Source of the DNA: Kibdelosporangium aridum
Lineage (GTDB): Bacteria; Actinomycetota; Actinomycetes; Mycobacteriales; Pseudonocardiaceae
Length of the DNA stretch: 64,000 nt
Direction of reading: 5' to 3'
Assembly: GCF_900176515.1 (NCBI RefSeq)
Contig: NZ_FWXV01000001.1
Location: 1-64,000 of the forward strand
Both the position numbers and the translations under genes were made by a program. Positions 41,625-61,800 of this stretch are shown piece by piece (positions within the stretch are counted from its first letter, which is position 1; every line of letters starts with the position of its first letter). The notes beneath the pieces are model-generated. The model was not told where the DNA came from. It searched no databases and worked only from the letters and a program-made list of their open reading frames with translations.

Positions 41625-41695
41625 CGTAGTGTCATGCTTTTAGCCTCCACATAGGCATTCTGTGGTTGTCGCGCGCTTCCCGTTATGGAGGTGCT

Positions 41696-43504: not shown

Positions 43505-43539
43505 CAGCCTTTCCCGCCAACCCAGAGGTACGCGAGTCA

Positions 43540-44064: not shown

Positions 44065-44066
44065 CC

Positions 44067-44777: not shown

Positions 44778-45441
44778 TCACTTCGACCGACTGCTGGCCA
44801 AAGCCTCCGGCGCGCCGGGCCCCGTACCGCAGGCCCGGCCAAGGCTGCCGCACCTGTTCGAACGGCCGCAACACGCGCCCGAATTGGAACAGTACGAGGA
44901 AATCGAGACTCCCCGGGTTCGTACGGCCGTCCCCGCTCCGCCCGGGCCTCTGATTCCGGGGCGTCCGCACGAGACGCCGGAGCAGGATGTCCACACTGGA
45001 CCGATACGGGAGCAGGTCCGGACGGAAGTCCGGCAGGACATCACCAAGTCAGTGGAGATCGTCCAAGCCGTGCACCGCATTGAGGAACGCGTCGAATTGC
45101 GCCGTGATGCCGAACTGGTCCCGGTGCATCTCCCGCCGCCGCCCCTGACATCCATCGAACGGCCCGCGCCCGTCATCACCGCGACCGTGTCCGGTCAGTC
45201 CACTGTGGAAGCAAGGCAGCCCGCGTCTACTGCGGATCCGACGGTCTCCAGGCAGGAGCGGCGGGCCGAGCAAGCGCAGGTGCACAGTCCGCGTGCCGAG
45301 CGTGCGGTCCAGGTGACCATCGGCAGGTTCGAGGTGAACGTCGCGGGGCCGGACCGTGCCACACCGCGGGCACGTCCAAGCCGCGTGGCTCCGGTTGTCA
45401 GCCTCGATCGCTATCTCGCGGGGGAGGACGGGCGCCCATGA
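44770..45441 (+). CDS. disordered conserved linker protein of the injection cluster
   Basis: A 223-residue Pro/Arg/Glu-rich protein with low predicted order. The only strongly structured parts are a helix near IVQAVHRIEERVEL and a C-terminal strand VQVTIGRFEVNVAGP followed by VSLDRYLAG. Proteins with this short C-terminal strand motif occur between tube and DUF4255 genes in such clusters, with no known role. It overlaps both neighbours, by 8 bases before and 4 after. Confidence 0.65.
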   Translation: MPDHFDRLLAKASGAPGPVPQARPRLPHLFERPQHAPELEQYEEIETPRVRTAVPAPPGPLIPGRPHETPEQDVHTGPIREQVRTEVRQDITKSVEIVQAVHRIEERVELRRDAELVPVHLPPPPLTSIERPAPVITATVSGQSTVEARQPASTADPTVSRQERRAEQAQVHSPRAERAVQVTIGRFEVNVAGPDRATPRARPSRVAPVVSLDRYLAGEDGRP

Positions 45442-46625
45442 GCAACTATCTCGCCATCGCCCAGGCCACCCAGGCGCTGTGTGAGTTCATCGCGCGGTGC
45501 CTCCAGGCCGACGGTCTCGAACTCGGCGCTCAGGTCGTGCCCCGCAAACCACCCGCGGAACCGCCGCAGGAACCCCTTGTCACGGTCTTCCTCTACCAGA
45601 CCACTCCCAACGGGGCGCTGCGCAACCGCGACGCGCCGACTCGTGGGCCGGACGGAACACTGCTGACCAAGCCGCAGGCGGCATTGGACCTGCACTATCT
45701 GATCAGCGCCTACGGCAACGAGGACGAGCTCGAGCCGCAGCGGATGCTCGGCTCGATCGTGCGTGGCCTGCACGAGGAACCCATTTTGTCCCAGATGGAC
45801 ATCGAGGAGGCCGCGACCCGGCCGTTCCTCGCGGGTGGCGACCTCGCGGCGGCCGAGCAACGGGTGCGGTTCACGCCGTCCAAATTGGACCTGGACGACA
45901 TGTCGAAGCTGTGGTCGATGCTCGTCCAGACACCGTACGCGTTCTCCGTGGTCTACGAAGCCACGGCCGTCCTACTGGACGGGCATGGCACTCCGGCTGC
46001 GGGTAAACCGGTGCTGAGCAGGAACATCAGGACGATCGCGGGTCGCAGGCCGGTGATCGACCGGGTACGGTCACGCCCGCTCGGGTCGACCGCACTGCCT
46101 GTGGAAGGGCCAGTGCCCGCGGATCACGAGGTCTGGCTGGAGGGCCGGACGTTGGCCGGTCCGGACGTGAGCGTCCGGGTCGGCGGCCAGCGAGTGGTGC
46201 CGGATCAAGTCGCGGACAACCGAATCGTGTTCGTTCTTCCAGCGGACTTGCCTGCCGGGGTCTATCCGGTCCGGGTCGACATCGGGCCGATCGAATCCGC
46301 GGCCGTGCCGGTGACGCGCCAGCCGAAGATCGTGGAACCCGTCGAGGTCGGCGGTGATCCACTTGCCGTGACTGTTCAGCTGGACATGCCGGTACGCGCA
46401 GATCAACGAGTCGACTTGCTGCTGGACGAACTGGACCCGCCCGCGGACCGGCCCGCGGCCAGCTACCGGATCGCGGCGCCGTTCCCGGCTGATCCGGGCA
46501 CCAGCGTGCAGATCCCGATCGCGGCGGTGCAGCCGCTCGGCTATCTGGTGCGCGTGCAGGTTTCCGGCGTGGTCAGCAGGCCCGGCGATGACTTGCGCAC
46601 GCCGAAGATCGACGTGGAGGGCTGA
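45438..46625 (+). CDS. DUF4255 tail terminator/cap protein with Ig-like domains
   Basis: A 395-residue protein. Residues 1-190 are the DUF4255 domain (YLAIAQATQALCEFI at the start, ALDLHYLISAYG in the middle), homologous to the terminator/cap Pvc16/Afp16. Residues about 200-395 are beta-rich, with VWLEGRTLAGPDVSVRVGG resembling IPT/Ig-like domains. It would cap the sheath and tube distal end. Confidence 0.88.
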   Translation: MSNYLAIAQATQALCEFIARCLQADGLELGAQVVPRKPPAEPPQEPLVTVFLYQTTPNGALRNRDAPTRGPDGTLLTKPQAALDLHYLISAYGNEDELEPQRMLGSIVRGLHEEPILSQMDIEEAATRPFLAGGDLAAAEQRVRFTPSKLDLDDMSKLWSMLVQTPYAFSVVYEATAVLLDGHGTPAAGKPVLSRNIRTIAGRRPVIDRVRSRPLGSTALPVEGPVPADHEVWLEGRTLAGPDVSVRVGGQRVVPDQVADNRIVFVLPADLPAGVYPVRVDIGPIESAAVPVTRQPKIVEPVEVGGDPLAVTVQLDMPVRADQRVDLLLDELDPPADRPAASYRIAAPFPADPGTSVQIPIAAVQPLGYLVRVQVSGVVSRPGDDLRTPKIDVEG

Positions 46626-46627
46626 TC

Positions 46628-48511
46628 GTGCACCGGCAGGCGCTTGTTGACGCAGTGCGGTCAGTGCTGACCGCCATCGACGCGCACGCCGGGAATGGGC
46701 CTGCCCCACAACCCTTTGAGCCTGACGGGTCAAGCGCGTTGCAGGCACTGTGCGGGTGCTTTGGGTTGACATCCTTCGAACGCGATGTGCTTGTGCTGGC
46801 CGCGGCGATGGAGATCGACCCGACCACGGCGGCGCGGTGTGCGGCAGCCAGCGGAGATCCGCAGCGCGCGTTTCCCACGTTTTCCCTGGCCTTGGCGGCT
46901 TTCCCGGAGCCGCACTGGGGCGCGCTCACGCCAGTGGCGCCGTTGCGGCGGTGGCGGCTGATCGAACTGGACGAGACTGGATCGCTGGTCAACGCCCGGC
47001 TTCGGATCGACGAGCGGATCCTGCACTTCCTCGCTGGCATCCCGTATCTGGACACGCGGTTGCGCGGGATTGTCGCACCTGTCCCGGATCCGGGTGACCT
47101 GCCAGGCTCGTACGCCGGACTGGCGGCCCGCGCGGCGGAGAGCTGGCAGCGTGTGGACGGAAGGCCACACGTCGAACTGACCGGCGGCGACCGTGAAACA
47201 CACCGCGAAGTGGCTGCGGCCGCGGCAGCCTCGGCCGGGTTGACGCTGTATGTCGCGGACGGAACAGATCTGCCCAGTCACCCGACGGACCGGGATGCCG
47301 TTGGGCGGCTGTGGGAACGCGAATCCGTGTTGTTGCCCGCGGCCTTGCTCGTGGAGACTGGGACGGCGACTCAGGCGGTCGTCGACGCGTTCATCTCGCC
47401 GCTGGACGTACCAATCCTAGTGTCCAATGAGGATGGAGGTTCAGCCGATCGGCGAAGGCACCGGTTCACGGTGCCCGCGCTGACGTCCGACGAGCAGTAT
47501 CAGCTCTGGTCGGCGGAGCTGAACGGGCATGCCACGAACGGGTCCCGGCCGGTTGACGATGCCGAACTCAGCGGTCTCGTGGCGCAGTTCTCCTTGCCGG
47601 CACACGTCATCCGTGACGCCGGTCGAGCTGTCCGGCAGGAACCTGGTGCCGATGTGTCGCGGCGAGCCTGGCAGGCCGGTCTTGCCGAGGCCCGGATGGT
47701 GCTCGACGACCTCGGCAATCGCATTGAACCACGCGCCACCCGCGACGAACTCGTGTTGCCCGCACAGCAACGAGGAGTACTGGCCGAGATCGTCGCCCAT
47801 GTCCGGCAACGCGGCACGGTGTACCAGCAATGGGGCTTCGAGTCGGTGCTGCGGCGTGGACTTGGCGTCACCGCGTTGTTCGCCGGTGGCAGCGGAACGG
47901 GCAAAACCCTTGCCGCGGAGGTGATCGCGGGTGAACTCGGCCTCGATCTGTTCGTGATCGACCTGTCCCAGGTGGTCAGCAAGTACATCGGGGAGACTGA
48001 GAAGAACCTGCGCCGGGTCTTCGACGCGGCCGAGCGCGGCGGGGCCGTCCTGCTGTTCGACGAGGCGGACGCGTTGTTCGGCAAGCGGAGCGAAGTCAAG
48101 GACAGCCATGACCGGTACGCCAACCTCGAAGTCAGCTACCTGCTGATGCGGATGGAAGCCTATCGCGGACTGGCTGTGCTCACCACGAACATGAAGAAGG
48201 CGCTCGATCCCGCGTTCCTGCGCCGGATCCGGTTCGTGATCGACTTCCCGTTCCCTGGCGCGACGGAAAGGGCCGAGATCTGGCGCCGCGTCATTCCCGA
48301 CAGGACACCCGCAGAAGGTCTCGACATGGCGCGGCTGGCGCAGCTCACTGTCGCAGGCGGCAGCATCCGCAACATCGCCTTGTCCGCGGCGTTCCTGGCC
48401 GCGGACGAACAGTCTTCCTTGCGCATGCGGCATGTTCTGGCGGCCGCGCGGACCGAGTACGCCAAACTCGACCGCAAGCTCACGTCCGGGGAGGTCGCCG
48501 GATGGGAGTGA
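46628..48511 (+). CDS. AAA+ ATPase of the injection system (Pvc15/Afp15-like)
   Basis: A 627-residue ATPase. The N-terminal 350 residues are a helical regulatory region. The AAA+ core has Walker A AGGSGTGKT near residues 418-426, Walker B LLFDEADALFGKR near 474 and an arginine-rich ALDPAFLRRIRFVIDFPFP. It is the assembly ATPase conserved in eCIS clusters. The start is GTG, two bases after the cap gene. The next gene overlaps by 10 bases. Confidence 0.93.
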   Translation: MHRQALVDAVRSVLTAIDAHAGNGPAPQPFEPDGSSALQALCGCFGLTSFERDVLVLAAAMEIDPTTAARCAAASGDPQRAFPTFSLALAAFPEPHWGALTPVAPLRRWRLIELDETGSLVNARLRIDERILHFLAGIPYLDTRLRGIVAPVPDPGDLPGSYAGLAARAAESWQRVDGRPHVELTGGDRETHREVAAAAAASAGLTLYVADGTDLPSHPTDRDAVGRLWERESVLLPAALLVETGTATQAVVDAFISPLDVPILVSNEDGGSADRRRHRFTVPALTSDEQYQLWSAELNGHATNGSRPVDDAELSGLVAQFSLPAHVIRDAGRAVRQEPGADVSRRAWQAGLAEARMVLDDLGNRIEPRATRDELVLPAQQRGVLAEIVAHVRQRGTVYQQWGFESVLRRGLGVTALFAGGSGTGKTLAAEVIAGELGLDLFVIDLSQVVSKYIGETEKNLRRVFDAAERGGAVLLFDEADALFGKRSEVKDSHDRYANLEVSYLLMRMEAYRGLAVLTTNMKKALDPAFLRRIRFVIDFPFPGATERAEIWRRVIPDRTPAEGLDMARLAQLTVAGGSIRNIALSAAFLAADEQSSLRMRHVLAAARTEYAKLDRKLTSGEVAGWE

Positions 48512-48747
48512 TCGTCTTCGAGATCAACGAGCTGGTGCTCAACGGGTTCCCCAGGGTTGACCGGGATCGCGTGAGCGAGGCCTTCCAGCGGGAACTGACC
48601 CGGCTGCTGCACGTTGCACCGCCCAACCTGGAATCGGGCCGCACGGTGGATGTGGTGTCGTTGCCCGCTCTGCCGCCTGCGACTTCGTCACGGCGCCTCG
48701 GGGAAATGCTCGCCAGAGCTGTCCATGATGGAGTCACCCGGGCATGA
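48502..48747 (+). CDS. small protein of the injection cluster
   Basis: An 81-residue protein starting MGVIVFEINELVLNGFPRVD, a beta strand followed by a helix, with no known domain. Its place between the AAA+ gene and the DUF4157 gene is common in actinobacterial eCIS loci. It overlaps the ATPase gene by 10 bases and the next gene by 4. Codon use agrees with its neighbours, so it is a real gene. Confidence 0.7.
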   Translation: MGVIVFEINELVLNGFPRVDRDRVSEAFQRELTRLLHVAPPNLESGRTVDVVSLPALPPATSSRRLGEMLARAVHDGVTRA

Positions 48748-51700
48748 AGACCGCGGCGGCACCACGACAGCAGGCCTCCCGCAAGCGGGAGGCCGATTCG
48801 ACGCGTGTGGTCCGTCCGCCTGAGTTCAAGGACATCGTTTCCGGCGCTGGCCAGCCGCTTGACGTGGGGCTCCGCCGGGAACTGGAGGAACGGCTCGGCC
48901 ACGACTTCAGCCAGGTCCGGATTCATGCGGACCGTGATGCGGCGGCGTTGACTGCTCTGCTTGGTGCGGAAGCGGTCGCTGTGGGCAAGGACGTGTTCTT
49001 CGCCGAGGGCGCCTTCCACCCGGAAACCGTAGCCGGGCGGGCGTTGTTGACCCACGAGTTGCTGCACACGGTTCAGGTTCCGTATGCGCCAGGGCCGTTG
49101 CGGCTGGGGCGTTCGCATGGTGCGTTGAGCGATCCTCGTTCGGCTGTGGAGTTGGAGGCTTCGGACGGTTCTGCGGCCGAGGTTGACGCCCGGGGAGCGC
49201 AGGTTGCGTCGTGGTTGCGGTTTACGCGTGTTTCCGCTGATCAGCAGCGTGCCGAGCGTCTTGATCCGGCGACGATCGTCGACCGGTTGGTTGCCGGGGT
49301 GCTGCGTAGTTTGCGTGGTGACCCGACCGATGCTTCGGGGCGTGTCCGGCTTCAGTTCGGTCGTCTCGCTGTGTCGTTGCGAGAGCTTGTGCTGGATCGG
49401 CTTGAGACGCGGTTGTCGTCCGCGGAGTTCTCGCGGGTGCTTGAGCTTGTCGCTGAGGCTGATGCGGCTGCGGCTGGTGGTTCGGTCGAGTCGGCCGCTG
49501 TTCCGGAGCCTGTGACGGACACTGTCGACGAGATCGAGGCCTCGCGCGACGCCGAGTCGGAGTCTCGTGAGGGGCAAGAGGAGCAGGACGAGCAACGCGA
49601 GGAAGACGAGAAGGCTGCTGAGGAGGAGCCTCCGGTCGAGGAAGAGCCCTCGGAACCCTCGGAGCCTGAGGAGCCGACCGAGGAAGAGCCTTCCGAAGAG
49701 GAGAAGGAGAAGGAGAAAGAGGAGGAGGACGAGGAGAAGAAGGACAAGGAGAAGGAGGACGAAGAGTCCAAGGACGAGGACGAGAAGTCCAAGGACAAAT
49801 CCAAGGACAAGGAGGGCGAGAAGCCCGCCGAGGAACAGGCCAGGGACGCTGAGGCTGCCGCGGCCGCCCAGCCTGCAGCTCAGGCGCCGGGCGCGATGGG
49901 CGCCATGCAGCCGATGATGGGGCAAGGGCCTGCCGCTGGTGCTACGCCCGTTGGTGGGGCGACCACCGCTGATGCCCAGCCGGGAGCTGAGCGTCCGGAA
50001 CGGGTCGAGGCCGCCGCGATGGCGCCGGACAGCCCACTCGTACGACACGGTCTCGTGGACCGGCCGGACAAGGACACTGTCGAAGAGGCGGAGCGGCCGA
50101 TCGGTCTGGAGCCGGACGCCGAGGCGGAGATCGCCACGCCTGAGCCTGAACCGGAACGCGCGGCGGCTGAACCGGAGCGTCCCGAGCTCAAGCCTGAGGA
50201 CTTCCTGCCCGGCAGCGATCTCGACGTGTCCAATGTGCCGACTGCCGCCCAGGTCACGTTGCCGGCCGGCGGTGCCGCGCCGAGACCTCCCGCCCCACCG
50301 AGCTTCCCGGCACCGCCGCCGACCAAGGCTGAACAGGAAGAGGCCGAGGAACCCCCCGCGCCCGCCGCGCCTGAGGCCGCCGAACCTGAGCCGTCTCCCG
50401 AGCCCGCGACCGCCGAACCCGAACTCGCGGAGCCCGAACGTGCTGCGGCTGAGCCAGCTGAGCCCGCTGAGACGGGTCCCGACCCTGAGCCGCTCGCTGG
50501 ACCTGCTGAGCCGCAACCACTCGCGGCGCAACCAGCGGCAGAGCCGGCCGGACCGGGCATGGGACCTGCCGGACCAGGTGCTGACCTTGGCGGACCAGGT
50601 GTGGGACCTGCTGGACCAGGTGCCGACCTTGGCGGACCAGGGGCGAGTCCTGGTGGACCGGGGGCCGATTTCGGCGGACCAGAGGCTGGTGCCGCCGGGC
50701 CGGGTGCCGGTCTTGACGGACCAGGCATGGGGTCTGCCGGGCCGGGTGCCGATGCAGGTCTAGCTGGCCCACCGGGGGCAGGTCCGGACGCTTCGCTGGA
50801 GGCGGGTGGTGGTGCGTGCGCCGGTTCACCGGAGCCCACGACCGATGGCGCGAAGCCCGAGGGCGGCCAAGGCGGTTGCGCCGCAGGTGGCGGTGGCGGG
50901 GCCGCGCCTCCTGCTGCTGAACAGCAGCCGCCTGCGCCTGACGTCTCCGCTCAGCAACCAGAGGCCGCGCTGGCCACGGTCTCGACCCTGCCGCCGGATC
51001 GGATGGCGTCATCGCTGTCGCAAGTAGACAGTGCGGTGGGCAAGGACGTCGGCGACCAACAGGCCCAGTTGCAGGCGGCGCCACCGACGGCACAGCGGCC
51101 GTCCGGCGCCCCGCAGACACTGTCCGGCCCGCCGGAGGCCGCGCCGTTGGGGCACACCGAGAAGGTGACGCTGGACAAGATCGCCGCCGAGCGTGCCGAA
51201 CAGCAGAAGCAGCAGCAGGCCAAGCAGGTTCAGGGCACAGATCCGGCTGGTCAGGCGTCACGTCCGCAGGTCACTGGCGGCACCGACGGCAAGATCACCG
51301 AGCAGGAGGCGCGCAACGTCGAGGAGGCGGTGGAGAACGTCCCGACCACCGACCCGGCCTTGCACGCCACTGTCGGTCCAGTCCAGAAGGTCGAGTTGAA
51401 GGGTGAGACCGACCCGGTCAGGACCGATGAGCAGTCCGCCGAGCTCAGCCAGAAGTCGCAGGAGATCAATCAGGGCGGTAAGGAGGAGGCGGCCAAACCG
51501 CTTGGCGAGGACCAGATTTACCCGAACGTACCCGCGGAGACCCTGACCGCTGAGGTGCCAGGCGGTCAGGGCGGTGGCGGGGGACCCGTCGGCCCTGGGG
51601 CGGCTGCCGCGGATCAGGGCGTTGCCGTTGTCGCCCAACAGGAGCGTGGCCCGCAAATCCAGGCCGGTGTCGCTCAAGGCCAAGCGCAGATGGGCCAGGA

Positions 51701-54700
51701 GCGGCAAAACCAGCAGCAGGGCGCGGCCGAGGCGAACGCCCAGCACGAAGCTGATGTGGCTCAGGCCGTGCAGGAGAACGCCGAAGCGCAGGCGGCTGAG
51801 CGCGGCAAGGTCGCCGAGGACGCGGCCGCGCAGCGTGAGGAGTGGCGGGCCGAGCAGGACAAGAAGATCCAGGAAACGGGCGCGGAGGCGGGCAAGGAGC
51901 ACGAGCAGGCCAGAACCGGGATCCACAAGGAGAAGACGGACGCCGACCGTGAAGGCGAGGAGCGCCAGAAGCAGGACAACGACGAGATCGCGCGGGAGCG
52001 TGAAGCAGCCGAAGAGAAGGCGCGCAAGGAGAAAGAGAGGAAGAAGGAGGAGTCGAGCGGCGGGATCTTCGGGTGGATCGCGTCGAAGGTGAAGAGCTTC
52101 TTCGAAGGGCTGCTGAACGCGATCACGGCGATCTTCGACGCGGCGATCAAGCTGGTGAACACGATCGTGCAGGGCTTCGCCAGTTTCATCACCGGCCTGA
52201 TCGACCTGGCGCGCAACGCGATCATCGGCCTGATCAACGCGTTGGCCGATGCCCTGTTGAAGCTGTGCGACATCCTGGCGATCTTCTTCCCGGAGCTGGC
52301 GGCCAAGATCCGCGCGAAGATCGAGCAGCTGCGTGACGCGGCGATCGCGGCCGTGAACGCGTTGGCGGACGCTTTGAAGGCTGGCGTCCAAGCGCTGATG
52401 AACCTGCTCGCCCAAGCCCTGACAGGATTGTTGAGGTTGCTCGAAGCGGGCCTGAAGGCAGCGGTGCAAGTGGTGCGCGCGGCGGTGGAAGGCGCCATCG
52501 AGTTCGCCCGAGCAGCAATCCAAATGCTCGGCCAATTCGCCGCGATCATCGCCGACATCGCGGCAATGGGCGTCGGTCCCTGGCTAGGCCGCCTCGGCAG
52601 CTCGGCGAAGGAAGGCATCCAGAACCACCTGTGGGGCGCGATAAAAGCGGCGGTCCGCCAATGGTTCAACGAAAAAGTCGAGTCCATCCTGGGCCTGGGC
52701 AAAGCCGTGATCAACACCCTGGTCAAGGGCTGCATCTCGATGGCCAAGATCGGCCGGATGGCCTGGGACGCGCTGATCGCCTCGCTGCCAATGATCATCA
52801 TCATGGTGGTCATCGAGCGCCTGGTCTCGTTGATCATCCCAGCGGCGGGCGCGGTCCTCGCCATCGTCCAAGGGCTCATGGCCGCGTGGGGCACGATCAG
52901 CAGGATCCTGGCGGCGATCGGCGCGTTCATCGCCTTCTTGAAGGCGGTCCGAGCCGGGCCCGCGGCCTGTCTGTTCGCTACCGCTGTCGCCGCGGGTGTG
53001 GTGGCGCTGCTGGAGTTCATCACCAACTTCCTGATGGCCAAGCTCGCCATGGCCGCCAAGGGCGTCGGCCGAACGTTGAGCGGAATGGCCAAAAAGATCC
53101 AGGCAGGCCTTCGGCGCACCGCCCGCGGACCCCGCAAAGCCACCGGCACAGCGGTGAATTCGGCCCGCCGCGACCTGAAGTCAGCGCTTGCCCCGCCCCG
53201 CCGTCCCGCCATGGGCGCCGGACCTGGCACCGCCCGCCGCCCCGGCGCACTCGCCCGTCGGCCCGGCGCTGCGGCACCCACCCGCCGCCCTCGCCCCGCC
53301 GCCGGCCCCGGCCGCCGCGCCCGCCCAGAACGTCCAGCTCCCGCTCGCCGCCGTGACCGCGACCCCGATGCACCACGCCGCCCCGGTGACCGCGATGCCG
53401 ACGCTCGTTCCCGTGACCGCGACACACCTTCACCCGGTCGCGCCCGACGCGCCGTCCGCGCGGTCGGCAATGTCCTCCGCAAGGCAGGACGCAAGATTGC
53501 CAACAGCAGACTCGGCCGCGCCCTGCGCAACAGCGTCAACAAACTCCGCGACAAATTCCGCCGCCGTCGCGACCACACCAAGGATCGCCAACGCCAGCGT
53601 GCGGCGGATCGTCGCCGCCGTAACGATCAGCAGTCTCCTCAGGCCAAACAGCGACGGCTTGAACTGATTGTGGCGCGTATTCGTCCTCGTTTGGAGAGAC
53701 TGCTCAGCCGTGGAGTTCGAGGTCCTGTCCTCCGTGTCATCTTGCAGGCCTTGCGTGTCTGGCACCGCCTGACAAGCCTGGAACTGCTTGGTACTGACAG
53801 GTTTAGAATTCGAGCAACGCTCAATCCGGGCACCGTTGTCGTGGCCGGTGTCGAGATTAATGAAGAAAGATTGCTCAGATTCATCCGCCAGGTCGCTGAC
53901 GAGATCCTCACCGCTCCTACCACTATCCGCCAGGCGGCCAAGGTGAAGACCGACCTCCAGTCGCGTGTGGTCAACCAATCCGGGAAGACGGAAGTCATTC
54001 CCGTCTATCGGCCGGCGCGTAGAACGAGCCTGCCCGCGCTACTGCGATTTCTCAAGGATCTTCCCTATCGTCGCAGTGGCCACGAAGTGATCAGTCTCTC
54101 TGGCGGTGTGGAAGTGTGGCGCCAGCAGGGGTGGTTGCCTACCAAGGGATTACCGCCCACCGTGAACAAGAAGGTCTTCGCAATGCTGGATGGCATGCGT
54201 CAGTCCGGCCGGCCGCCTTCTTATTTGGAGATAGCGGAGACAATCAAAGAAGACGCCCGCGGCAGTAAGTTCCGAGCGAAGCGTCTTGCTCGTCAGGTTC
54301 AACGTGTGATGCGTGGAAAGCCGGTGACCGGATCGGGCAGTGACTTGGCTGGTTTCCTCGGCATTCTCACGGTCGTCCAAGAGGGGCATCGCGATCCACG
54401 GTCGGCTCCGATCGTCACCACAGCGATGGCCATGCAGATCATGGCCAAGACAGGAGATGTGGACAAGAGTCTTGGGAATTTCCCGGCGGCGCCGGTTGGT
54501 TCGCAGCGCGGTATGTTCAGGTTGAGTGACTACCTGGAACGCGAAGAACGAGGTGACGTGTTGCGGAGCGGTGTCGGAGAACCACTGGGTCCTGGTGGAG
54601 AATCGACAGAATTGCAGAACCTCTCGTCCCGCGCCACCGGCGCGATGGCCGCTATGCGGCAGGTGCAACGGGACGAAGGTTCGGCGGAAAACAGTGGTCA

Positions 54701-54968
54701 GGTCGAACAAGATCTTCGTCGAGCCGAGGCTCTTCGTAAGGCGACGCGTCAACGATCTGAGCACATGGCTCGCGCGCAAGAAGTTATGGACAGAGAGATC
54801 AAGATTATTCAGATCTGGGCGGAAACTCTTGATCTGAAAGTTCTGATTGCGAATGAAGAAGATCGGACCCAGGCGCTTTTCAGGCTAATACGTCAGCGAA
54901 TGCATGCGGCGTACAACATTCCGGTGGCAGAAACTGCTGCACAATCCGCTGGCGGGGAGTTGCCGTGA
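48744..54968 (+). CDS. giant DUF4157 (eCIS core) protein with tape-measure-like region and C-terminal payload
   Basis: A 2074-residue mosaic protein. Residues about 25-120 form the DUF4157 domain with the metalloprotease-like HELLH at 104-108. Residues 262-372 are a Glu/Lys/Asp stretch, 372-600 are Pro/Ala/Glu-rich, and 602-682 are a collagen-like GPGAG repeat. Residues 963-1105 form a long charged coiled coil. Residues 1106-1452 are amphipathic and hydrophobic helices resembling a tape measure. Residues 1456-1640 are an Arg-rich linker. Residues 1640-2074 are a distinct globular tail encoded by lower-GC DNA. DUF4157 marks proteins loaded into or associated with eCIS particles. The tail function is unknown. 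Confidence 0.87.
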   Translation: MKTAAAPRQQASRKREADSTRVVRPPEFKDIVSGAGQPLDVGLRRELEERLGHDFSQVRIHADRDAAALTALLGAEAVAVGKDVFFAEGAFHPETVAGRALLTHELLHTVQVPYAPGPLRLGRSHGALSDPRSAVELEASDGSAAEVDARGAQVASWLRFTRVSADQQRAERLDPATIVDRLVAGVLRSLRGDPTDASGRVRLQFGRLAVSLRELVLDRLETRLSSAEFSRVLELVAEADAAAAGGSVESAAVPEPVTDTVDEIEASRDAESESREGQEEQDEQREEDEKAAEEEPPVEEEPSEPSEPEEPTEEEPSEEEKEKEKEEEDEEKKDKEKEDEESKDEDEKSKDKSKDKEGEKPAEEQARDAEAAAAAQPAAQAPGAMGAMQPMMGQGPAAGATPVGGATTADAQPGAERPERVEAAAMAPDSPLVRHGLVDRPDKDTVEEAERPIGLEPDAEAEIATPEPEPERAAAEPERPELKPEDFLPGSDLDVSNVPTAAQVTLPAGGAAPRPPAPPSFPAPPPTKAEQEEAEEPPAPAAPEAAEPEPSPEPATAEPELAEPERAAAEPAEPAETGPDPEPLAGPAEPQPLAAQPAAEPAGPGMGPAGPGADLGGPGVGPAGPGADLGGPGASPGGPGADFGGPEAGAAGPGAGLDGPGMGSAGPGADAGLAGPPGAGPDASLEAGGGACAGSPEPTTDGAKPEGGQGGCAAGGGGGAAPPAAEQQPPAPDVSAQQPEAALATVSTLPPDRMASSLSQVDSAVGKDVGDQQAQLQAAPPTAQRPSGAPQTLSGPPEAAPLGHTEKVTLDKIAAERAEQQKQQQAKQVQGTDPAGQASRPQVTGGTDGKITEQEARNVEEAVENVPTTDPALHATVGPVQKVELKGETDPVRTDEQSAELSQKSQEINQGGKEEAAKPLGEDQIYPNVPAETLTAEVPGGQGGGGGPVGPGAAAADQGVAVVAQQERGPQIQAGVAQGQAQMGQERQNQQQGAAEANAQHEADVAQAVQENAEAQAAERGKVAEDAAAQREEWRAEQDKKIQETGAEAGKEHEQARTGIHKEKTDADREGEERQKQDNDEIAREREAAEEKARKEKERKKEESSGGIFGWIASKVKSFFEGLLNAITAIFDAAIKLVNTIVQGFASFITGLIDLARNAIIGLINALADALLKLCDILAIFFPELAAKIRAKIEQLRDAAIAAVNALADALKAGVQALMNLLAQALTGLLRLLEAGLKAAVQVVRAAVEGAIEFARAAIQMLGQFAAIIADIAAMGVGPWLGRLGSSAKEGIQNHLWGAIKAAVRQWFNEKVESILGLGKAVINTLVKGCISMAKIGRMAWDALIASLPMIIIMVVIERLVSLIIPAAGAVLAIVQGLMAAWGTISRILAAIGAFIAFLKAVRAGPAACLFATAVAAGVVALLEFITNFLMAKLAMAAKGVGRTLSGMAKKIQAGLRRTARGPRKATGTAVNSARRDLKSALAPPRRPAMGAGPGTARRPGALARRPGAAAPTRRPRPAAGPGRRARPERPAPARRRDRDPDAPRRPGDRDADARSRDRDTPSPGRARRAVRAVGNVLRKAGRKIANSRLGRALRNSVNKLRDKFRRRRDHTKDRQRQRAADRRRRNDQQSPQAKQRRLELIVARIRPRLERLLSRGVRGPVLRVILQALRVWHRLTSLELLGTDRFRIRATLNPGTVVVAGVEINEERLLRFIRQVADEILTAPTTIRQAAKVKTDLQSRVVNQSGKTEVIPVYRPARRTSLPALLRFLKDLPYRRSGHEVISLSGGVEVWRQQGWLPTKGLPPTVNKKVFAMLDGMRQSGRPPSYLEIAETIKEDARGSKFRAKRLARQVQRVMRGKPVTGSGSDLAGFLGILTVVQEGHRDPRSAPIVTTAMAMQIMAKTGDVDKSLGNFPAAPVGSQRGMFRLSDYLEREERGDVLRSGVGEPLGPGGESTELQNLSSRATGAMAAMRQVQRDEGSAENSGQVEQDLRRAEALRKATRQRSEHMARAQEVMDREIKIIQIWAETLDLKVLIANEEDRTQALFRLIRQRMHAAYNIPVAETAAQSAGGELP
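50548..50790 (+). repeat. collagen-like GPGxG coding repeats
   Basis: About ten imperfect units encoding GPG-A/M-G-x-x-GP follow each other within the giant DUF4157 gene, with 24-36-base periodicity. The DNA is repetitive because of the peptide pattern. It is likely prone to length variation by slippage. Confidence 0.8.
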
Positions 54969-55564
54969 GTGAATCCTTCTCCTCGCGGCGTTACTTGCTC
55001 GCGCCGAAAGCGACTGACGCCGATGTTGCAGTGGTCGCCACGAAGCTGGGATGGGCGAAACTTGGCGAAATCTCCCAAAACAGCGCTGATCTGGTTTCGC
55101 GAGAGGTGATCTGGGGCGCGTCAGACCAGCTGACGCTGCACTATTCTGAAGATTTCCTTTCTCGTAGCCCTCATTTCTTCGTCACTGGACACGACCGTGC
55201 GAAGGTCGATGTCGCGGCGCGGTTCGCGCAGGGCCGGCTGCGGCCTGCCACCCTTGACGAACTTGTCGAGGCGTTCGACGACGTGTCCGGGGACTTGGCA
55301 GATGAAATCCTGGCTACCCTACGGCTGGGACTGGGTTCGCCACTCGAGTTCGACGAACGGTTTTTCGACCGCGTACGAAAATCGATGTCCAGCGCTGACG
55401 AAGGATTGCGCAGAGCTGCGGTGTGGGCGACCTTGTACGCCGTCTGGGAGCAGTACATTCCCGTTCTCCTTGAAGTCGCGGAACGTGATCACAGTGAACA
55501 GCTTCGTGCTGAAGCTCGGATGGTGATACAGGCGTACAGGATGCAGGGGGTTGGCGGTGACTAG
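54965..55564 (+). CDS. putative immunity protein for the DUF4157 payload
   Basis: A 199-residue acidic, soluble, mostly helical protein with no recognised domain. The second half has a helix-pair look (ATLRLGLGSPLEFDERFF and RRAAVWATLYAVWEQYIPVL) like HEAT or ankyrin-type repeats. Its GTG start lies inside the stop of the giant gene (GTGA), so translation is coupled. Base composition matches the low-GC tail of that gene, not the flanking tail genes. The small size and 3' coupling are what a cognate immunity protein would show, but no homology supports this. A chaperone for loading the payload is the main alternative. Confidence 0.55.
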   Translation: MSESFSSRRYLLAPKATDADVAVVATKLGWAKLGEISQNSADLVSREVIWGASDQLTLHYSEDFLSRSPHFFVTGHDRAKVDVAARFAQGRLRPATLDELVEAFDDVSGDLADEILATLRLGLGSPLEFDERFFDRVRKSMSSADEGLRRAAVWATLYAVWEQYIPVLLEVAERDHSEQLRAEARMVIQAYRMQGVGGD

Positions 55565-56201
55565 GTTTCTGGACATACCGAAGCCGATTCGGTCGGGGAT
55601 TGTGATTGTGGATCCTGAGCGGGGGACGCCGCAAAGGGTGATCGTGCTGCAGTTCAACCCGGACTCGTTGGAGCGGGGGCTGGCGCCGCAAGCGGCCGGT
55701 GCGGAGCAAGGCGACCGGACGGAAGCCCTGAGGCTCAAAGGTCCCGCCGTCGAGACCTGGAAGTTCACCGCCGAAATCGACTCCACCGACCAGCCGGAGG
55801 TTCCGGCGCCGAACGGGATCCATCCGCAGCTTGCCGCGCTTGAGATGCTCGTGCAGCCGCCGAGCGCGCGGATCAGGGCGAACCAGGCGCTCGCCGACTC
55901 CGGCACGCTGGAGATCACGCCGATCGAGAGCCCGCTGACGTTGTTCACGTGGGGACGCAACCGGGTGATGCCGGTGAGGCTCACCGAGCTTTCCATTGTG
56001 GAGGATGCCTTTGACGTCGACCTCAACCCTATTCGGGCCACGTTGTCCGTCGGGTTGAGGGTTTTGTCGTCCAGCGATCTGCCCACTGGGCATCGGGGGG
56101 CCGAGCTCTATCTCGCTCACCTCGCCCAGAAGGAGCGGCTTGCTGGGGTTGCTCCGGCCGGGCAGCTCAGTGCGTTGGGGCTTAGGGGAGGACTGGGATG
56201 A
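55557..56201 (+). CDS. tube initiator / CIS tube protein (Afp7/Pvc7-like)
   Basis: A roughly 214-residue protein with VIVLQFNPDSLERGLAPQ near the N-terminus and ELSIVEDAFDVDLNPIRATLSVGLRVL near the C-terminus, both typical of the CIS tube/initiator family that joins the inner tube to the hub. The start is GTG at 55557 with GGGGG six bases before, and a TTG six bases upstream is possible. It overlaps the previous gene by 8 bases. High GC returns here, which marks the end of the payload insertion. Confidence 0.85.
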   Translation: MTRFLDIPKPIRSGIVIVDPERGTPQRVIVLQFNPDSLERGLAPQAAGAEQGDRTEALRLKGPAVETWKFTAEIDSTDQPEVPAPNGIHPQLAALEMLVQPPSARIRANQALADSGTLEITPIESPLTLFTWGRNRVMPVRLTELSIVEDAFDVDLNPIRATLSVGLRVLSSSDLPTGHRGAELYLAHLAQKERLAGVAPAGQLSALGLRGGLG

Positions 56202-56464
56202 CTTATCCGCGTACTAGTCGGTACTTCGGGATTGAACCCGTTGTGCACGATGGGATTCCTTGTTTGCCGCCGCGTCTTTTGCCGCGACCGCCGGAGGAAA
56301 CACTTGCGGTGCATGAGGTGCGGGAGGGGGATCGTGCTGATGTGCTTGCCAACCGGTACATCGGGGATCCGGAGCAGTGGTGGCGGATCGCCGACGCCAA
56401 CCCTGTCCTTGACCCGCGGGATCTGACGAGCACTCCGGGGCGCAGGCTGAGGATCACCCAATGA
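56198..56464 (+). CDS. LysM-like small tail protein
   Basis: An 88-residue protein. The second half, VREGDRADVLANRYIGDPEQWWRIADANPVLDP in pieces, has the LysM fold pattern that ends in a basic RRLRITQ, as in tail proteins that anchor the hub (gpX/LysM class). It overlaps its neighbours by 4 bases on both sides. Confidence 0.83.
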   Translation: MTYPRTSRYFGIEPVVHDGIPCLPPRLLPRPPEETLAVHEVREGDRADVLANRYIGDPEQWWRIADANPVLDPRDLTSTPGRRLRITQ

Positions 56465-57576
56465 TTCGGATGACGTTGCTGATGGGCCCGCAGATCGTCG
56501 CGCCCGCCCCGCAGGAGGTGACCGATGCCCTGCTTTCCGCTCAGGTCACCGTCACCGCCGGGCAGCGCAGTGGGTTTCAGCTGTCGTTCGACCTCAGCCG
56601 CAATGGCTTGATCAACCGCTCCCTGCTGCCCGGCGGGCAGTTCGACCCGCAAGTGCGAATCGTCCTCACGGTCAGTTTCAAAGGGACACGAACCGTTTTG
56701 ATGGACGGCATCATCACGCGCCAGGAGGTTGGTGTCTCCGGCGTTCCTGGGCAGTCCACTTTGACCGTCACTGGTGAAGACCTGACCGTTCTGATGGATT
56801 TGGAAGAGCGGGAGGGGGTTCCGTTTCCCGCGATGGGACCGGCCGCGCGGGTTGCTGCGATCATCAGCCGGTACGCCCATTACGGCATCACGCCGCTCGT
56901 CATCCCCGAGCTCATCCCGCAGACTCCGATGCCCACTCAGCGCATCGACTTCCAGAAGGGCACCGACCTCGCCTACCTCAACGAGCTCGCCAAGGCCAAC
57001 GGCTACGTCTTCTACCTCGAACCCGGCCCGGTTCCCGGTGTCAGCCGGGGCTATTGGGGGCCTGAGGTCCGGCTCGGCGAACCGCAACACGCCATCAACG
57101 TCAACATGGACCATCTCTCCACTGTGGACCAGCTGACCTTTGGGTTCGACGGCGCCGCACGCGAACAACCCGTGGCGCGGGTTCAGATCCCGACCACGCG
57201 CACCGACGTGCTGCTGCCGGTTCCCGAAGTCAGCGTGCTGCGCCCGCCGCTTGCGAGGCGGCCCGCGCCCGCTCTCAAGAAGAAGGTCATCGACGACACC
57301 GCCAAGAAGGATGCCGCTCAGGCTTTCGCCGAGACCTTGGCCAAGGTCGTCGAATCCTCCGACGCGGTCAGCGGTTCCGGGCAACTGGATGTCGTGCGAT
57401 ACGGCCACATCCTGCGTCCACGCGAACTTGTCGGCGTCCGCGGATCCGGCATCACCTACGACGGTCTGTACTACGTCAAAAGCGTCACCCACAACCTGCA
57501 GCGCGGCTCGTACACCCAGAACTTCACCCTTGCCAGGGAAGGCCTCATCGCCCTGCACCCGACCGTCGTCCCGTAA
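56461..57576 (+). CDS. hub protein, phage late control gene D-like
   Basis: A 371-residue hub subunit related to gpD/gp27 and VgrG bases. It has the GEDLTVLMDLEER segment, the QRIDFQKGTDLAYLNELAKANGYVFYLE motif and a C-terminal YDGLYYVKSVTHNLQRGSYTQNF strand pair, all usual for this family. An Ala/Lys stretch near residues 270-285 is a linker. It starts four bases before the LysM-like stop. Confidence 0.9.
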   Translation: MIRMTLLMGPQIVAPAPQEVTDALLSAQVTVTAGQRSGFQLSFDLSRNGLINRSLLPGGQFDPQVRIVLTVSFKGTRTVLMDGIITRQEVGVSGVPGQSTLTVTGEDLTVLMDLEEREGVPFPAMGPAARVAAIISRYAHYGITPLVIPELIPQTPMPTQRIDFQKGTDLAYLNELAKANGYVFYLEPGPVPGVSRGYWGPEVRLGEPQHAINVNMDHLSTVDQLTFGFDGAAREQPVARVQIPTTRTDVLLPVPEVSVLRPPLARRPAPALKKKVIDDTAKKDAAQAFAETLAKVVESSDAVSGSGQLDVVRYGHILRPRELVGVRGSGITYDGLYYVKSVTHNLQRGSYTQNFTLAREGLIALHPTVVP

Positions 57577-57589
57577 CCGGAGGAGGCCC

Positions 57590-58102
57590 ATGCCCGAACC
57601 GAATCGTTACTTCGGCAAGTACCGTGGCACCGTCGTCAACAACGTGGATCCGATGCGGCAGGGACGCATCCAGGTCCGCGTACCCGACGTGCTCGGTGAC
57701 GCGACGTCCTCATGGGCTATGCCGTGTTTCCCGGTGACTGGGCCGAATATGGGTGTCTACACGGTTCCGCCCATCGGTGCTGGGGTGTGGGTCGAGTTCG
57801 AGCAGGGTGACGTCAGCTTCCCGATCTGGGTCGGCTGCTGGTACGGCTCCGCCGCCGAAGTACCCGCCGATGGCCTGCTCGGGGATCCGGCGCGGCCGAA
57901 CTTCGTTGTGGTGACACGAGGTCAGCACAAACTCGTGATGTCCGATCTGCCCGGCGGGCCAGGCATCACGCTGCGTGCGTCCTCCGGCGCCTCGATCGTG
58001 ATCAACGACATGGGCATCGAGATCAGCAACGGCCGTGGCGCGGTGATCTCGCTGACCGGCCAGACCGTGACCATCAACGAAGGTGCCTTCAGCATCACAT
58101 AA
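57590..58102 (+). CDS. spike protein, baseplate assembly protein V-like
   Basis: A 170-residue spike with an N-terminal OB fold (KYRGTVVNNVDPMRQGRIQVRVPD) and a GAGVWVEFEQGDVSFPIWVG core, then a short beta-helix tail with ISLTGQTVTINEG. It tips the tube with the PAAR-like protein. A GGAGGAGG site precedes ATG. The longer in-frame start at 57140 is a shadow of the hub gene. Confidence 0.92.
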   Translation: MPEPNRYFGKYRGTVVNNVDPMRQGRIQVRVPDVLGDATSSWAMPCFPVTGPNMGVYTVPPIGAGVWVEFEQGDVSFPIWVGCWYGSAAEVPADGLLGDPARPNFVVVTRGQHKLVMSDLPGGPGITLRASSGASIVINDMGIEISNGRGAVISLTGQTVTINEGAFSIT

Positions 58103-58113
58103 AGGGGGCCGGG

Positions 58114-58446
58114 ATGCCGGGGAACTTGTTGCACGTCAACGCGACCGTGCTGTGTCCGCACGGCGGGCAGGCCGCGGCCCAGCCCGCGCAGACTCGGGCG
58201 TTGGTGGACGGCCAGACGGTCACCACGATCGCCGACTTCTACACAGTGACCGGCTGTCCGTTCACCGTCGCCAACAAACCTCAGCCCTGCGTCACCGTCG
58301 AGTGGACACGCGGCAGCGCGCGGCTGCGTGCGAGTGGGACGCCGGTGCTACTGCAGGACTCCACCGGTTTCTGCTACAGCGCCGACCGCGTGCCGCAGGG
58401 TGCGCCGATGGTCACCGTCGTCCAGCAAAGGGGGACCGGCCAATGA
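58114..58446 (+). CDS. PAAR-like tip protein
   Basis: A 110-residue protein with cysteines and histidines in LLHVNATVLCPHGGQA and TVTGCPFTVANKPQPC, which is a pattern for a metal-stabilised PAAR-like cone. It has the position of the tip in other clusters. It starts with AAAGGGGG before ATG and overlaps the gp25 gene by four bases. Confidence 0.72.
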   Translation: MPGNLLHVNATVLCPHGGQAAAQPAQTRALVDGQTVTTIADFYTVTGCPFTVANKPQPCVTVEWTRGSARLRASGTPVLLQDSTGFCYSADRVPQGAPMVTVVQQRGTGQ

Positions 58447-58811
58447 GCCGCATGGACATCGCGTTTCCGTATCAAGTAGACAGTCATGGCCGGACCGCGA
58501 CCGCCGACTACGACGATCATGTCAGGGACATGATCCTGCAGTTGTTGTTCACCAGCCCGGGGGAGCGCGTGATGCGGCCCGATTTCGGCTGCGGGCTGAT
58601 GGACCTGGTTTTCGAGCCGAACAGCCCAGAGCTTGCCGCCACGTTGCAGTTGTCCGTGCAGGCCGCGTTGCAGCGTTGGCTCGGTGACGTCATCGGGATC
58701 GATGCGCTGGAAATCCTCAGCGAGGACAACGTCCTGCGCGTGCACCTGGCTTACGTCGTCCTGGCCACGGGCACCAGGCGCACTGACGCGTTCGAGGTGG
58801 AGCTACCGTGA
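58443..58811 (+). CDS. baseplate wedge protein gp25/GPW-like
   Basis: A 122-residue baseplate subunit. It has ILQLLFTSPGERVMRPDFGCGLMDLVFEP in pieces, the main motif of the gp25 (GPW) lysozyme-like family, and a C-terminal strand. It overlaps the PAAR-like stop and the next start by four bases each. The catalytic residues of true lysozymes are not evident, so the role is structural. Confidence 0.93.
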   Translation: MSRMDIAFPYQVDSHGRTATADYDDHVRDMILQLLFTSPGERVMRPDFGCGLMDLVFEPNSPELAATLQLSVQAALQRWLGDVIGIDALEILSEDNVLRVHLAYVVLATGTRRTDAFEVELP

Positions 58812-61800
58812 AATGCCGTACGGACAAACGCAAGGCAGACGTTCGCGAGGCGGACTACAACGGACTGGACGGCGTCGAGGCCAATGATGACGGCACTGTC
58901 CTCACTGTCACGTTCCTAGGTCGTGCACCTCGCCGAGTCGGCCCGGAGAACATCCGGATCGACGGCGGCAGGCGCATCGTCGGTATCCGGGCGGTCGACG
59001 TCGAGATCCATCCGGCCGAAGACCCGGAACTCGACGACGAGATGCGGGTCACTGTGGACAGACCCGGTGACAACTCGACCTACACCATGCGGATCGTCGA
59101 AGAAGACGCCTACGGGCGCCCCGGAACAACGCCATACCACGGGTTCGACCCGAGGTACGCGTCGGCGGACTTCTCCTTCCGGCAAGCCTGCCCGACTGAT
59201 TTCGACTGCGCCGAAACGAAATCCGAGATCTCGCCGAACCGCCCGTCGCCCGTCATCGACTACACCGCACGTGACTACGCCAGCCTGCGCAGGTCGTTGC
59301 TGGAGCGGATGACGCTGACTCTGCCGGACTGGGTCGAGCGGCACGCGCCTGATCTCGGCGTGACGCTCGTCGAAGCCTTGGCCTACGTCGGTGATCAGCT
59401 CAGCTACCAGCAGGACGCCGTGGCCACCGAGGCCTACCTGGACACCGCGAGGCACCGGGTCTCGGTACGCAGGCACGTCCGGCTGGTGGACTACGCCATG
59501 CACGACGGCTGCAACGCCCGGGCCTGGGTGGCGATGCGCACGGACAAGCCCTTGACCCTCAACACCGGTGACTACAGGTTCGCCGCGATCGACGCGGGCG
59601 CGCTTGAGCCCCGCGACCGGCCTGAACTTGGCGTGGTGATCTCCGACGAGCAACTGGTCTCGTTGCCGCCCACGGTCACCGTCCGGGTCTTCGAGCCGTT
59701 GGTGCCCGGCCCGATCGATCTGCACCCCGCGCACAACAGGATCGAGTTCTGGACCTGGGGCGAACAAGAGTGCTGCCTGCCCAAGGGCGCCACCTCCGCC
59801 ACCCTGCGCGACTGCTGGGAAGACGACCACGACGAAGCCGAAGCCGAAACAGAAGAAGGCAGGACGCGGCGGCGCACGTTGCGACTCGCCCCCGGTGACG
59901 TGCTGGTCATCGAGGAAGTGATCGGCCCGCGCACCGGATCGCCCGCCGACGCCGATCCCACACACCGCCAGGCGGTCCGGCTCACCTCGGTGACGCCCGG
60001 CGTCGACGAGCTCTACGACCAGCCGATCGTCGAAGTCACCTGGGCCAGGCAGGACGCGCTGGACTTCCCCGTCTGCGTGTCCACCCTTGGCGGTCCGGAG
60101 TGCGAACTGCTCACCGACGTCAGCGTGGCCACCGGAAACGTCGTGCTCGTCGATCACGGCTGGGACAACACCTACTGCGGCGGCGAACCCGAACTGATCA
60201 CGGTCCCGCCTGCCGAGACAAGGCTGCCGTCCTGCGATCCCCCTGCATTCGGCTGCCCGGACCGGCCCGACGAAGCGCCCGTCGTCGCCAAGGCCCACGA
60301 CCTGCTGACGCGGGCCCGCAACGGAGAGCCGCTCACCGAAGACGACATCATCGGGCTCGTCGCACTGCTGGACCAGGCCACGATCGATCGAGCCGGGCTG
60401 GCACCCGACACGCCCGCCGCCGAACAGGCCGCCGCGTTGGAAACGTTGCTCGCGCAGATCACCTATCCGGCGATACCGCCGCGATTTCGGCCGGTACTCG
60501 GCGAGCAACCGGTCACGCAAAGTGTCGCCTTCCCTGAGCCTGGACGTATCGCGGCCGCACAGGCGGAACTTCTCGCTCAGATCCCGGTACGAGTGCGCGC
60601 ATGGCTGGACCGGTTGTGGCGGCGGGTACGTGACGGGCACCGGCTGGTCCGGCCCGAGATCCTCGCGTTACGCGTGTTGTTCACCGAACGCGTGCTCGAC
60701 GAGATCGACCTGATAGAGCACCAGGAACGGGGCTTGCTGGAGCTGACCGCCAGGTTCGACCGGCTGCTCAGCGGAAAACTGCGCCGGATCGACACGCTGC
60801 TCGCGCGGGCCCGCGCGGGTGCCGTGCTCGGTAGTGACGCGGTGTGGGAGATCGGGCAGAGCTGGGGCGAGCAGTACGCCGATGGGCTGGCGGCGGACGA
60901 CAGGCGGCTCTTCGGGCCGGCCAGACAAGCCGTCGTCCAGGATCCACGAGCGGCCCTGCCCGCCGTGACGATCGACGTGACCGACGTCGGCACGTGGTCG
61001 CCGCGCCGGGATTTGCTTGGCAGCGGCCGCAATGACCGGCACTTCGTTGGCGAAGTGGACGATGACGGCAGGCTGGTTCTCCGGTTCGGCGACGGCAGGC
61101 ACGGCATCGCTCCACCGCCTGGCTCGCGGTTGCGCGTGCGCTATCGAGTCGGCAACGGGCTCGCCGGGAACGTCGGTGCGGAAGCCATCAGCCATCTTGT
61201 CCTGTGCTGCGGAGTTGGCGACGGCGAGGGGATCACAACGGTCCGCAACCCGATGCCCGCGACCGGTGGAACAGCAGAAGAGCCGATGGACCAGGTCCGT
61301 CAACTCGCTCCGCTCTCGTTGCAGCGCACCAGACTCCGCGCCGTGACCGCGGCGGACTACGCCGAACTGGCCGGACGCGTGTACGGCGTTTCACGCGCGG
61401 CAGCCCAACTGCGTTGGACGGGCACGTGTGAACAGGTGCACGTCGCGATCGACGCGGCCGGGCACGCGACAGCGGATGCCGGATTGATCGCCGCAGTCGC
61501 CGGGGCTTTGGAGCAGTACCGCAGGATCGGGCACCAAGTGACCGTTCAGCCCGCTGTGCTCGTCCCGGTCGACCTCGAAGTGACCATCTGCGTCGATCCT
61601 GGTTATCAACGCGGGCACGTCGCCAGGGCGGTCACCAAGGTCCTCAATGGATTCTTCCACCCAGACGCGCTGACGTTCGGCGATCCGTTGCGTGTCAGCG
61701 CGATAATCGCCGCGGCGAGCGCGGTGCCTGGCGTGACCACCGCGCACGTGACAAGGCTCAAACGGCTGTTCCGGCCCGCGGGCAATGAACTCGCCGACGG

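Follow-up and report, generated by a model that had tools for sequence, protein, structure and literature searches.

Does the small gene that overlaps the end of a giant effector gene in a bacterial contractile injection system (CIS) encode the antidote to a toxin at the end of that effector? The question is raised by a stretch of 64,000 nucleotides from Kibdelosporangium aridum (NZ_FWXV01000001.1, positions 1 to 64,000), referred to below, at its full length, as the window, in which the largest open reading frame (ORF) of a CIS cluster encodes a giant protein with an N-terminal DUF4157 domain. The 2074-residue DUF4157 protein described in the initial annotation was recovered as an ORF at 48744..54968 (+ strand, ATG start; PF13699, E 6.6e-24), and so was the acidic, GTGA-coupled gene said to follow it, which starts with GTG, occupies 54965..55564 (+ strand) and encodes 199 residues with a net charge of -9. 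This second gene is called the slot gene here, and its product is a predicted immunity protein of class S2. Overlapping stops and starts occur at 48744, 54965 and 55557: the giant stop and the slot start share the GTGA at 54965, and the slot stop overlaps the GTG start of an afp7 or tube-initiator-type CIS_tube gene at 55557, so that giant, slot gene and afp7 are coupled. Comparison with related loci leads us to read the interval of about 53,618-55,551 as an exchangeable cassette of a likely toxin C-terminus and its likely cognate immunity protein, with a probability of roughly 0.86.

Joint exchange of C-terminus and slot gene

Exchange can be seen within the genus. A same-genus locus (L029) has a trunk, the part of the giant before the exchanged end, that is 98% identical to that of the window, yet its pair of C-terminus and slot protein is different: the C-terminus is BMT5-like methyltransferase in type (E 1.3e-30), and the slot protein of 181 aa gives a weak SUKH-1 match (E 0.08). 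DNA homology between the two loci ends at 53618 and resumes at 55552, which delimits an exchanged block at 53618..55551 (+ strand). A search of the window genome gave no match to the L029 slot gene, and one of the L029 genome gave none to S2. In nine close comparisons, hand-picked from the 33 pairs described below (two share a locus), the block is flanked by 82-97% DNA identity, and in 9/9 the homology ends inside the giant gene and resumes -24 to +42 bases from the afp7 start.

For a wider comparison, giant residues 1039-1481 served as trunk query. Matches were found in 8 of 150 relatives and 9 of 394 genomes of the class (the window's own genome counted and one match weak in each). Among 392 Streptomyces genomes, 92 matched, and for 88 the match had an E under 1e-60. 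From these 88 genomes, 80 loci were taken; four were already in the set and four were left out, namely three whose contig stops on the C-terminal side (G755, G644 and G877) and one (G621) whose slot contains an S2 match. After exclusion of truncated loci (L099, L127 and L149), a duplicate of L062 (L135) and two weak trunk matches (L042 and L043), the final set comprised 92 loci, all readable through to afp7: the window, L029-L041, L062, L063 and 76 of L071-L150. With phmmer, the C-terminal parts (after the junction) were grouped into T classes and, independently, the slot proteins into S classes; the second of two slot ORFs was used for L037 and the second of two S1 genes for L146. The T2 cluster depends on the threshold, as E 1e-5 splits its 29 members into 20 + 9.

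A slot gene is present in 91 of these 92 loci, and its class follows the class of the C-terminus almost without exception: T1 with S1 in 35/35, T2 with S2 in 28/29, T3 with S3 in 5/5, T4 with S4 in 5/5, T5 with S5 in 4/4 and T6 with S6 in 2/2. Six singleton C-termini (T8, T10, T11, T12, T14 and T17) each have a slot family of their own. S2 is also found behind five small classes, T7, T9, T13, T15 and T16 (6 loci), which are probably divergent T2, since the T2 profile finds them (T7 and T9 at E 3.4e-4 or better, the other three at E 0.02-0.06). When these are merged with T2, S2 is carried by 34 of 35 T2 loci, the exception being L041. Across the 91 loci that have a slot gene, C-terminus and slot agree in 3913 of 4095 pairs of loci, compared with a mean of 2491 and a maximum of 2635 in 300 shuffles.

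Loci with nearly identical trunks are the most informative. Of 59 pairs with a trunk distance below 0.1, 26 share the class of both C-terminus and slot, 32 share neither, and one is unlike in the C-terminal class alone. Thus the slot has also been exchanged in 32 of the 33 close-trunk pairs of unlike C-terminal class, the remaining pair having S2 on both sides. Mean identities in these 33 pairs are 94.6% for the trunk and 95.2% for afp7, but 23% for the C-terminal part and 24.5% for the slot protein. Mean identity is also low in the 26 same-class pairs (34.8% for the C-terminal part and 38.2% for the slot), so that alleles seem to be replaced within classes as well.

Mapped on a trunk tree, the C-terminal class has undergone at least 34 changes and the slot class 30, or 29 and 30 with the divergent T2 classes merged. 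In independent pairs on starred branches, S1 goes with T1 in 10/10 and S2 with the T2 family in 18/19. Among the 28 T2-S2 loci, the toxin distance is correlated with the slot distance given the trunk (partial r 0.814; 0/999 permutations as high), and the correlation of toxin or slot distance with trunk distance is 0.09. Shared ancestry as the cause of the pairing was therefore rejected, because trunk distance is no predictor within T2-S2 and the independent pairs agree. A single conserved structural C-terminus with a fixed partner was rejected as well, because classes are exchanged among the 92 loci; homologues that kept the same C-terminus and small gene everywhere would have spoken for a structural or chaperone role, and both parts are exchanged instead.

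The layout of a polymorphic toxin with a cognate immunity protein, as first proposed from the window alone, is thus well supported by comparative evidence: a conserved carrier with exchanged C-termini is followed by an immunity-type gene matched to the C-terminal class, and one slot class belongs to a curated immunity family (see below). On this view the window holds a polymorphic toxin system with a tape-measure-like CIS effector as its carrier.

The carrier, the predicted toxin and the slot protein families

All parts of the giant lie on the + strand. The extracellular CIS (eCIS) core domain, DUF4157, covers residues 38-111 (48855..49076), with a HELLH motif at residues 104-108. An acidic, Pro/Gly-rich low-complexity region recognised by composition only (residues ~232-1018; 49437..51797; 20% D+E) is followed by a hydrophobic tape-measure-like region (residues 1107-1393; 52062..52922; 61.7% hydrophobic), of which residues 1108-1393 match the tail length tape measure family PHROG 1272 (E 1.8e-11). 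A cationic segment with 28.6% Arg (residues 1482-1642; 53187..53669) resembles that described for the effector Tme (PMC11126660). Iteration of a hidden Markov model identified a shared junction, or adaptor, before the exchanged domain (residues 1643-1695; 53670..53828), which is present in 82 of the 92 giants. The remaining residues, 1696-2074 (53829..54965), form the predicted toxin domain of class T2. Across the 29 members of this class, E1880, R1883 and W2025 are conserved in 29/29, Y1827 and G1919 in 28, N1808 in 27 and P1914 in 26.

The differing base composition of C-terminus and small gene, noted at the outset, was borne out by measurement. In 300-base windows, GC falls from 0.73-0.80 (53000-53599) to 0.53-0.61 (53600-55699) and is 0.62-0.67 in the afp7 gene. 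GC at third codon positions (GC3) is 0.617 for residues 1696-2074, and none of 330 equally long windows in other genes of the window is as low; the slot gene, at 0.65, has the lowest GC3 among the 53 called genes of the window. Mean GC3 values over 91 cassettes are 0.949 for the trunk, 0.740 for the C-terminal part, 0.719 for the slot gene and 0.890 for afp7.

The slot classes, which were clustered separately from the C-termini, are mutually unrelated in sequence. The slot protein of the window has an N-terminal alpha/beta part and HEAT-like repeats of paired helices in its C-terminal half (HEAT_2, E 0.0099, below the cut-off), and a family scan gave no match to a SUKH model. In class S4, 5/5 members belong to the SUKH-4 immunity family (best E 1.7e-20), and the one C-terminus scanned from the loci with S4 has weak HNH and Ntox15 matches.

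The distribution of S2 outside the trunk slot is also of interest. The 392 Streptomyces genomes contain 48 places with an S2 homologue (E 1e-6 or better); this and the other place counts are lower bounds, as the genome searches score only the best first-look candidates. The trunk slot accounts for 29 of the 48; three lie directly behind other carriers with the junction, two adjoin a short remnant of a T2 C-terminus, and 14 have no T2 or junction match in their surroundings (mostly 6 kb on each side), other toxin types not being excluded. S2 was thus seen apart from any carrier in 16 of 48 places, seven of them in genomes without a trunk match, eight in genomes with a cassette of another class and one in a T2-S2 genome. 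Four of the eight are in a single Streptomyces genome, G688, where three S2 genes and one S2 fragment accompany a T1-S1 cassette of its own. Orphan immunity genes, a further mark of polymorphic toxin systems, are therefore found for S2, and not clearly for S1. S2 is also present in four plasmid records. A plasmid-borne cassette was considered for T2 and rejected, as T2 has no match in the 72,556 plasmid records searched.

Several loci show variations on this arrangement. The two remnants lie directly upstream of their S2 genes, at L156 5887-6626 (40 profile positions, E 9.8e-6) and L057 8713-9461 (22 profile positions, E 0.0017), as though the toxin had been lost by decay while its antidote was kept. 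At L163, L164 and L165, an S2 gene comes directly after a large ORF that has a T2-type junction but is not matched by the trunk query. One of the three ORFs has a T2 match (E 1.9e-12); judged by sequence, these are further carriers of the same kind of cassette. At L047 a T2 domain (E 1.8e-28) is found on a different carrier of 1216 aa, with weak tape-measure similarity (E 9e-5) and no junction match, and an S2 gene (E 1.9e-33) overlaps it by 20 bases. Insertion sequence transposases lie near the S2 HEAT gene in both of the plasmid records examined (NZ_CP107763.1 37243-37842 and NZ_CP109164.1 644628-645233, both from Streptomyces). In another CIS cluster (L059 9324-12669), an S2-type HEAT gene on the opposite strand adjoins an 888-aa carrier whose terminal domain has the motif HAE ... 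PCxxC, which resembles that of a nucleic-acid deaminase. Tandem S1 genes fill the slot at L146 (both intact) and at L124 (one intact and one broken). The T5-S5 loci L036, L076, L088 and L136 have slot proteins of 406-414 aa, far above other classes; that of L036 has CxxC pairs and no confident family. The T3 C-terminus of L104 matches DUF7587 (E 1.3e-6, above the cut-off), and that of L072, also T3, does not.

Proposed mechanism, alternatives and known systems

Under the toxin-antidote reading, the trunk, with its eCIS core and its disordered-like, hydrophobic tape-measure-like and arginine-rich parts, would be a carrier that loads into the tube and would cross a membrane, in the manner suggested for Tme of Streptomyces davawensis. 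The contractile particle would inject the C-terminal toxin domain. The slot protein would bind newly made toxin in the producer cytoplasm until loading, and would also shield sister cells struck by the particle. The comparisons establish the architecture, the exchange of both parts together at fixed borders, their one-to-one classes and their correlated divergence; that the cassette products are toxic, bind each other, are loaded and act on a given target is inferred.

Some observations weigh against this reading. The T2 domain of the window has no relative in Pfam, NCBIfam, PADLOC or among solved structures. The structure check of the C-terminus suggested in the initial annotation, by an AlphaFold2 model of residues 1632-2074 (pLDDT 81), gave no confident fold match. 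S1, the commonest slot class, has no Pfam match in the 15/15 members scanned, so that its assigned role rests on position. In 101 genomes S1 occurs in 14 places, namely 11 trunk slots, one partial orphan and two unresolved at contig ends; being rarely orphan, it makes orphan copies a feature of S2 and not of all classes. T13, T15 and T16 carry S2, yet the T2 profile links them only at E 0.02-0.06, and if T2 is taken strictly, S2 follows it in 13.9 of 17 independent pairs on average, with none the other way. The trunk tree was built by a quick method and has four long branches and 23 open forks. Finally, the T2-type C-terminus of L041 (G383) keeps E and R, yet this locus is without a slot gene. 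There the giant stop overlaps afp7 (start 8890) by 4 bases, a pattern search found no HExxH in the called giant, and the genome has no S2 match, an empty answer that shows little without a positive control.

The pairing by itself could also be explained if the slot protein were a dedicated chaperone or loading adaptor that prevents the C-terminal domain from folding or docks it onto the tube initiator, toxicity being optional. A cognate chaperone would co-vary with its client too, the slot lies between effector and tube initiator with all three genes translationally coupled, and DUF4157 itself has been proposed to act in a chaperone-like manner (PMC11297309). However, the SUKH-4 proteins of class S4 are a curated immunity family, S2 lies apart from any carrier seen in 16 of 48 places and is also present in plasmid records, L041 manages without a slot gene, and the slot classes are unrelated in sequence although all would serve the same loading machine. 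We therefore consider a chaperone improbable. More improbable still is the absence of any toxin function, with C-terminus and slot gene as tail parts (length or baseplate variants, for example) that are neutral, evolve fast or recombine readily. Phage tape measure proteins reportedly accommodate variation in structure (PMC13277306), but one-to-one classes with correlated divergence, enzyme and immunity family matches in some classes, and the toxicity reported in E. coli for Tme and for its C-terminus all stand against it.

The target of such a toxin is harder to judge. The initial annotation had taken the presence of an immunity gene as a sign of activity on the producer or on related bacteria. 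S2 genes without an adjoining effector do favour exposure to the toxin of other bacteria. The argument from immunity to a bacterial target is weaker than claimed, because an effector active in its own cytoplasm needs an antidote whatever its target, and because the studied relative Tme acts on its own mycelium (PMC11126660). A true toxin-antidote pair could thus be directed at the own mycelium, in development or DNA release, or at eukaryotes, with the antidote limiting self-damage. The endonuclease C-terminus of Tme is held responsible for DNA release and sporulation in the S. davawensis colony that makes it (PMC11126660), and no tail-fibre family was matched among ten window proteins scanned. 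Class exchange between near-identical trunks in 33 pairs fits an inter-strain arms race better, as do the effector-less S2 genes, than a conserved developmental role; a target other than foreign bacteria is possible, at clearly less than even odds. As tentative is the proposal that Tme-type effectors form a compatibility system in filamentous actinobacteria, in which every strain has one of many toxin-antidote alleles at a fixed slot, only holders of the matching antidote are spared, and further antidotes are collected to tolerate neighbours. Firing would then take place between or within mycelia, G688 would be an example of collected antidotes, and T2 would be a toxin family on at least two kinds of tape-measure-like carrier.

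The closest known system is Tme (BN159_7576) of S. davawensis, a giant DUF4157 effector (Nagakubo 2024, PMC11126660). Like it, the window giant has DUF4157, tape-measure homology, hydrophobic and Arg-rich segments, and a position upstream of tube-initiator and spike or baseplate genes, which places it among Tme-type effectors; its T2 domain is unrelated to that of Tme, and the slot gene separates it from the tube-initiator gene. Tme itself most likely belongs to class T1, because a 19-residue C-terminal peptide given for it matches the T1-class L095 at 16/19 positions. The assignment is not certain, since none of the 35 T1 members showed, in its C-terminal part, the DRGH motif reported for Tme. 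By its number BN159_7577 lies between tme and the tube initiator (BN159_7578), and the presence of S1 at all 35 T1 loci predicts an antidote gene there. The main text of that paper does not contain 'immunity', 'antitoxin', 'self-intoxication' or BN159_7577; low activity and sequestration are proposed as protection, and artificial exchange of the C-terminus as an application.

Sle1-type effectors are likewise actinobacterial CIS effectors with diverse C-termini, distinct from Tme-like ones (Nagakubo 2026, PMC13277306). They lack DUF4157 and are encoded upstream of the sheath gene, unlike the window giant, which has DUF4157 and lies downstream of the sheath gene. One Sle1-type pair, M. eburnea RS14790/RS14785, behaved as effector and immunity protein on co-expression in E. 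coli, and the parts of PMC13277306 covered here do not report that natural pairs are exchanged among near-identical carriers. Among eCIS toxins more widely, those such as EAT5 combine a DUF4157 N-terminus, a linker occasionally longer than 1000 aa and a C-terminal toxin (Geller 2021, PMC8213781), an organisation shared by the window giant with its predicted toxin. According to the same source a few eCIS toxins have immunity genes and their lack at most is a mystery, whereas a slot gene accompanies nearly all Tme-type loci here. No other annotated domain is present in 983 of 1130 predicted DUF4157 effectors (Danov 2024). The Bacteroidetes TANFOR/BaCT-BaCTic polymorphic toxins, in which BaCT is also fused to DUF4157 (Jana 2020, PMC7073777), share with the present system a conserved carrier, varied C-termini and diverse downstream immunity-type proteins. 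Carrier and secretion route are different, and toxicity and rescue have been shown for BaCT-BaCTic, whereas the window pair is known from sequence alone.

No description of exchanged toxin-immunity cassettes in Tme-type effectors was found in the literature searched, which did not extend to subscription papers, bioRxiv preprints or supplementary files. Actinobacterial CIS are discussed as self-directed developmental or cell-death machines (PMC11126660, PMC10020575). An immunity slot that co-varies with the C-terminus points to payloads from which the producer must be shielded, and to selection to change them. Such a slot would help to resolve why immunity genes are missing at eCIS toxins (PMC8213781). 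The comparison also yields about a dozen paired C-terminal and slot families, several of which matched nothing significantly in the libraries searched. If the reading is true, bacteria would here be arming themselves against close relatives while staying protected from them, in a form open to experimental test.

The surrounding gene cluster

The window genome comprises 12.27 Mb in 40 contigs, and by sequence it is related to actinobacteria. Profile scans of the window proteins place the start of the CIS cluster, on the + strand throughout, at 41666. Sheath, tube (T4 gp19-type), T4_baseplate-like and Pvc16_N genes occupy 41666..46625, together with one gene without an assigned family (44770-45441), and are followed by an AAA ATPase gene at 46628..48511 (PF00004, E 6.9e-25). 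An ORF of 81 aa follows at 48502, before the giant. Downstream of the slot gene, afp7 (55557..56201; PF19266, E 2.1e-5, slightly under the cut-off) forms the right border of the cassette. A weakly VgrG-related gene is at 56461 (VgrG_rel, E 7.6e-5, far under the cut-off), and the stretch 56461..61900 also holds a weak PAAR-like DUF4280 gene (E 6.5e-4, below the cut-off), a gp25 gene (E 7e-18) and a baseplate J gene (Baseplate_J, E 3.4e-17).

Beyond the CIS genes, long + strand ORFs of 1228, 1013, 451 and 1381 aa run from 61897 past the end of the window to ~73,289 (L153), and these could possibly be fibre or attachment genes. Just upstream of the sheath gene, the window encodes an EspG-family protein of type VII secretion (40443-41195, E 5.9e-39). 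Two further eCIS_core matches in the window genome (G000:C21:652256-652489 and G000:C27:613116-613313) lie in open frames of 189 and 780 aa and possibly belong to further CIS-linked effectors.

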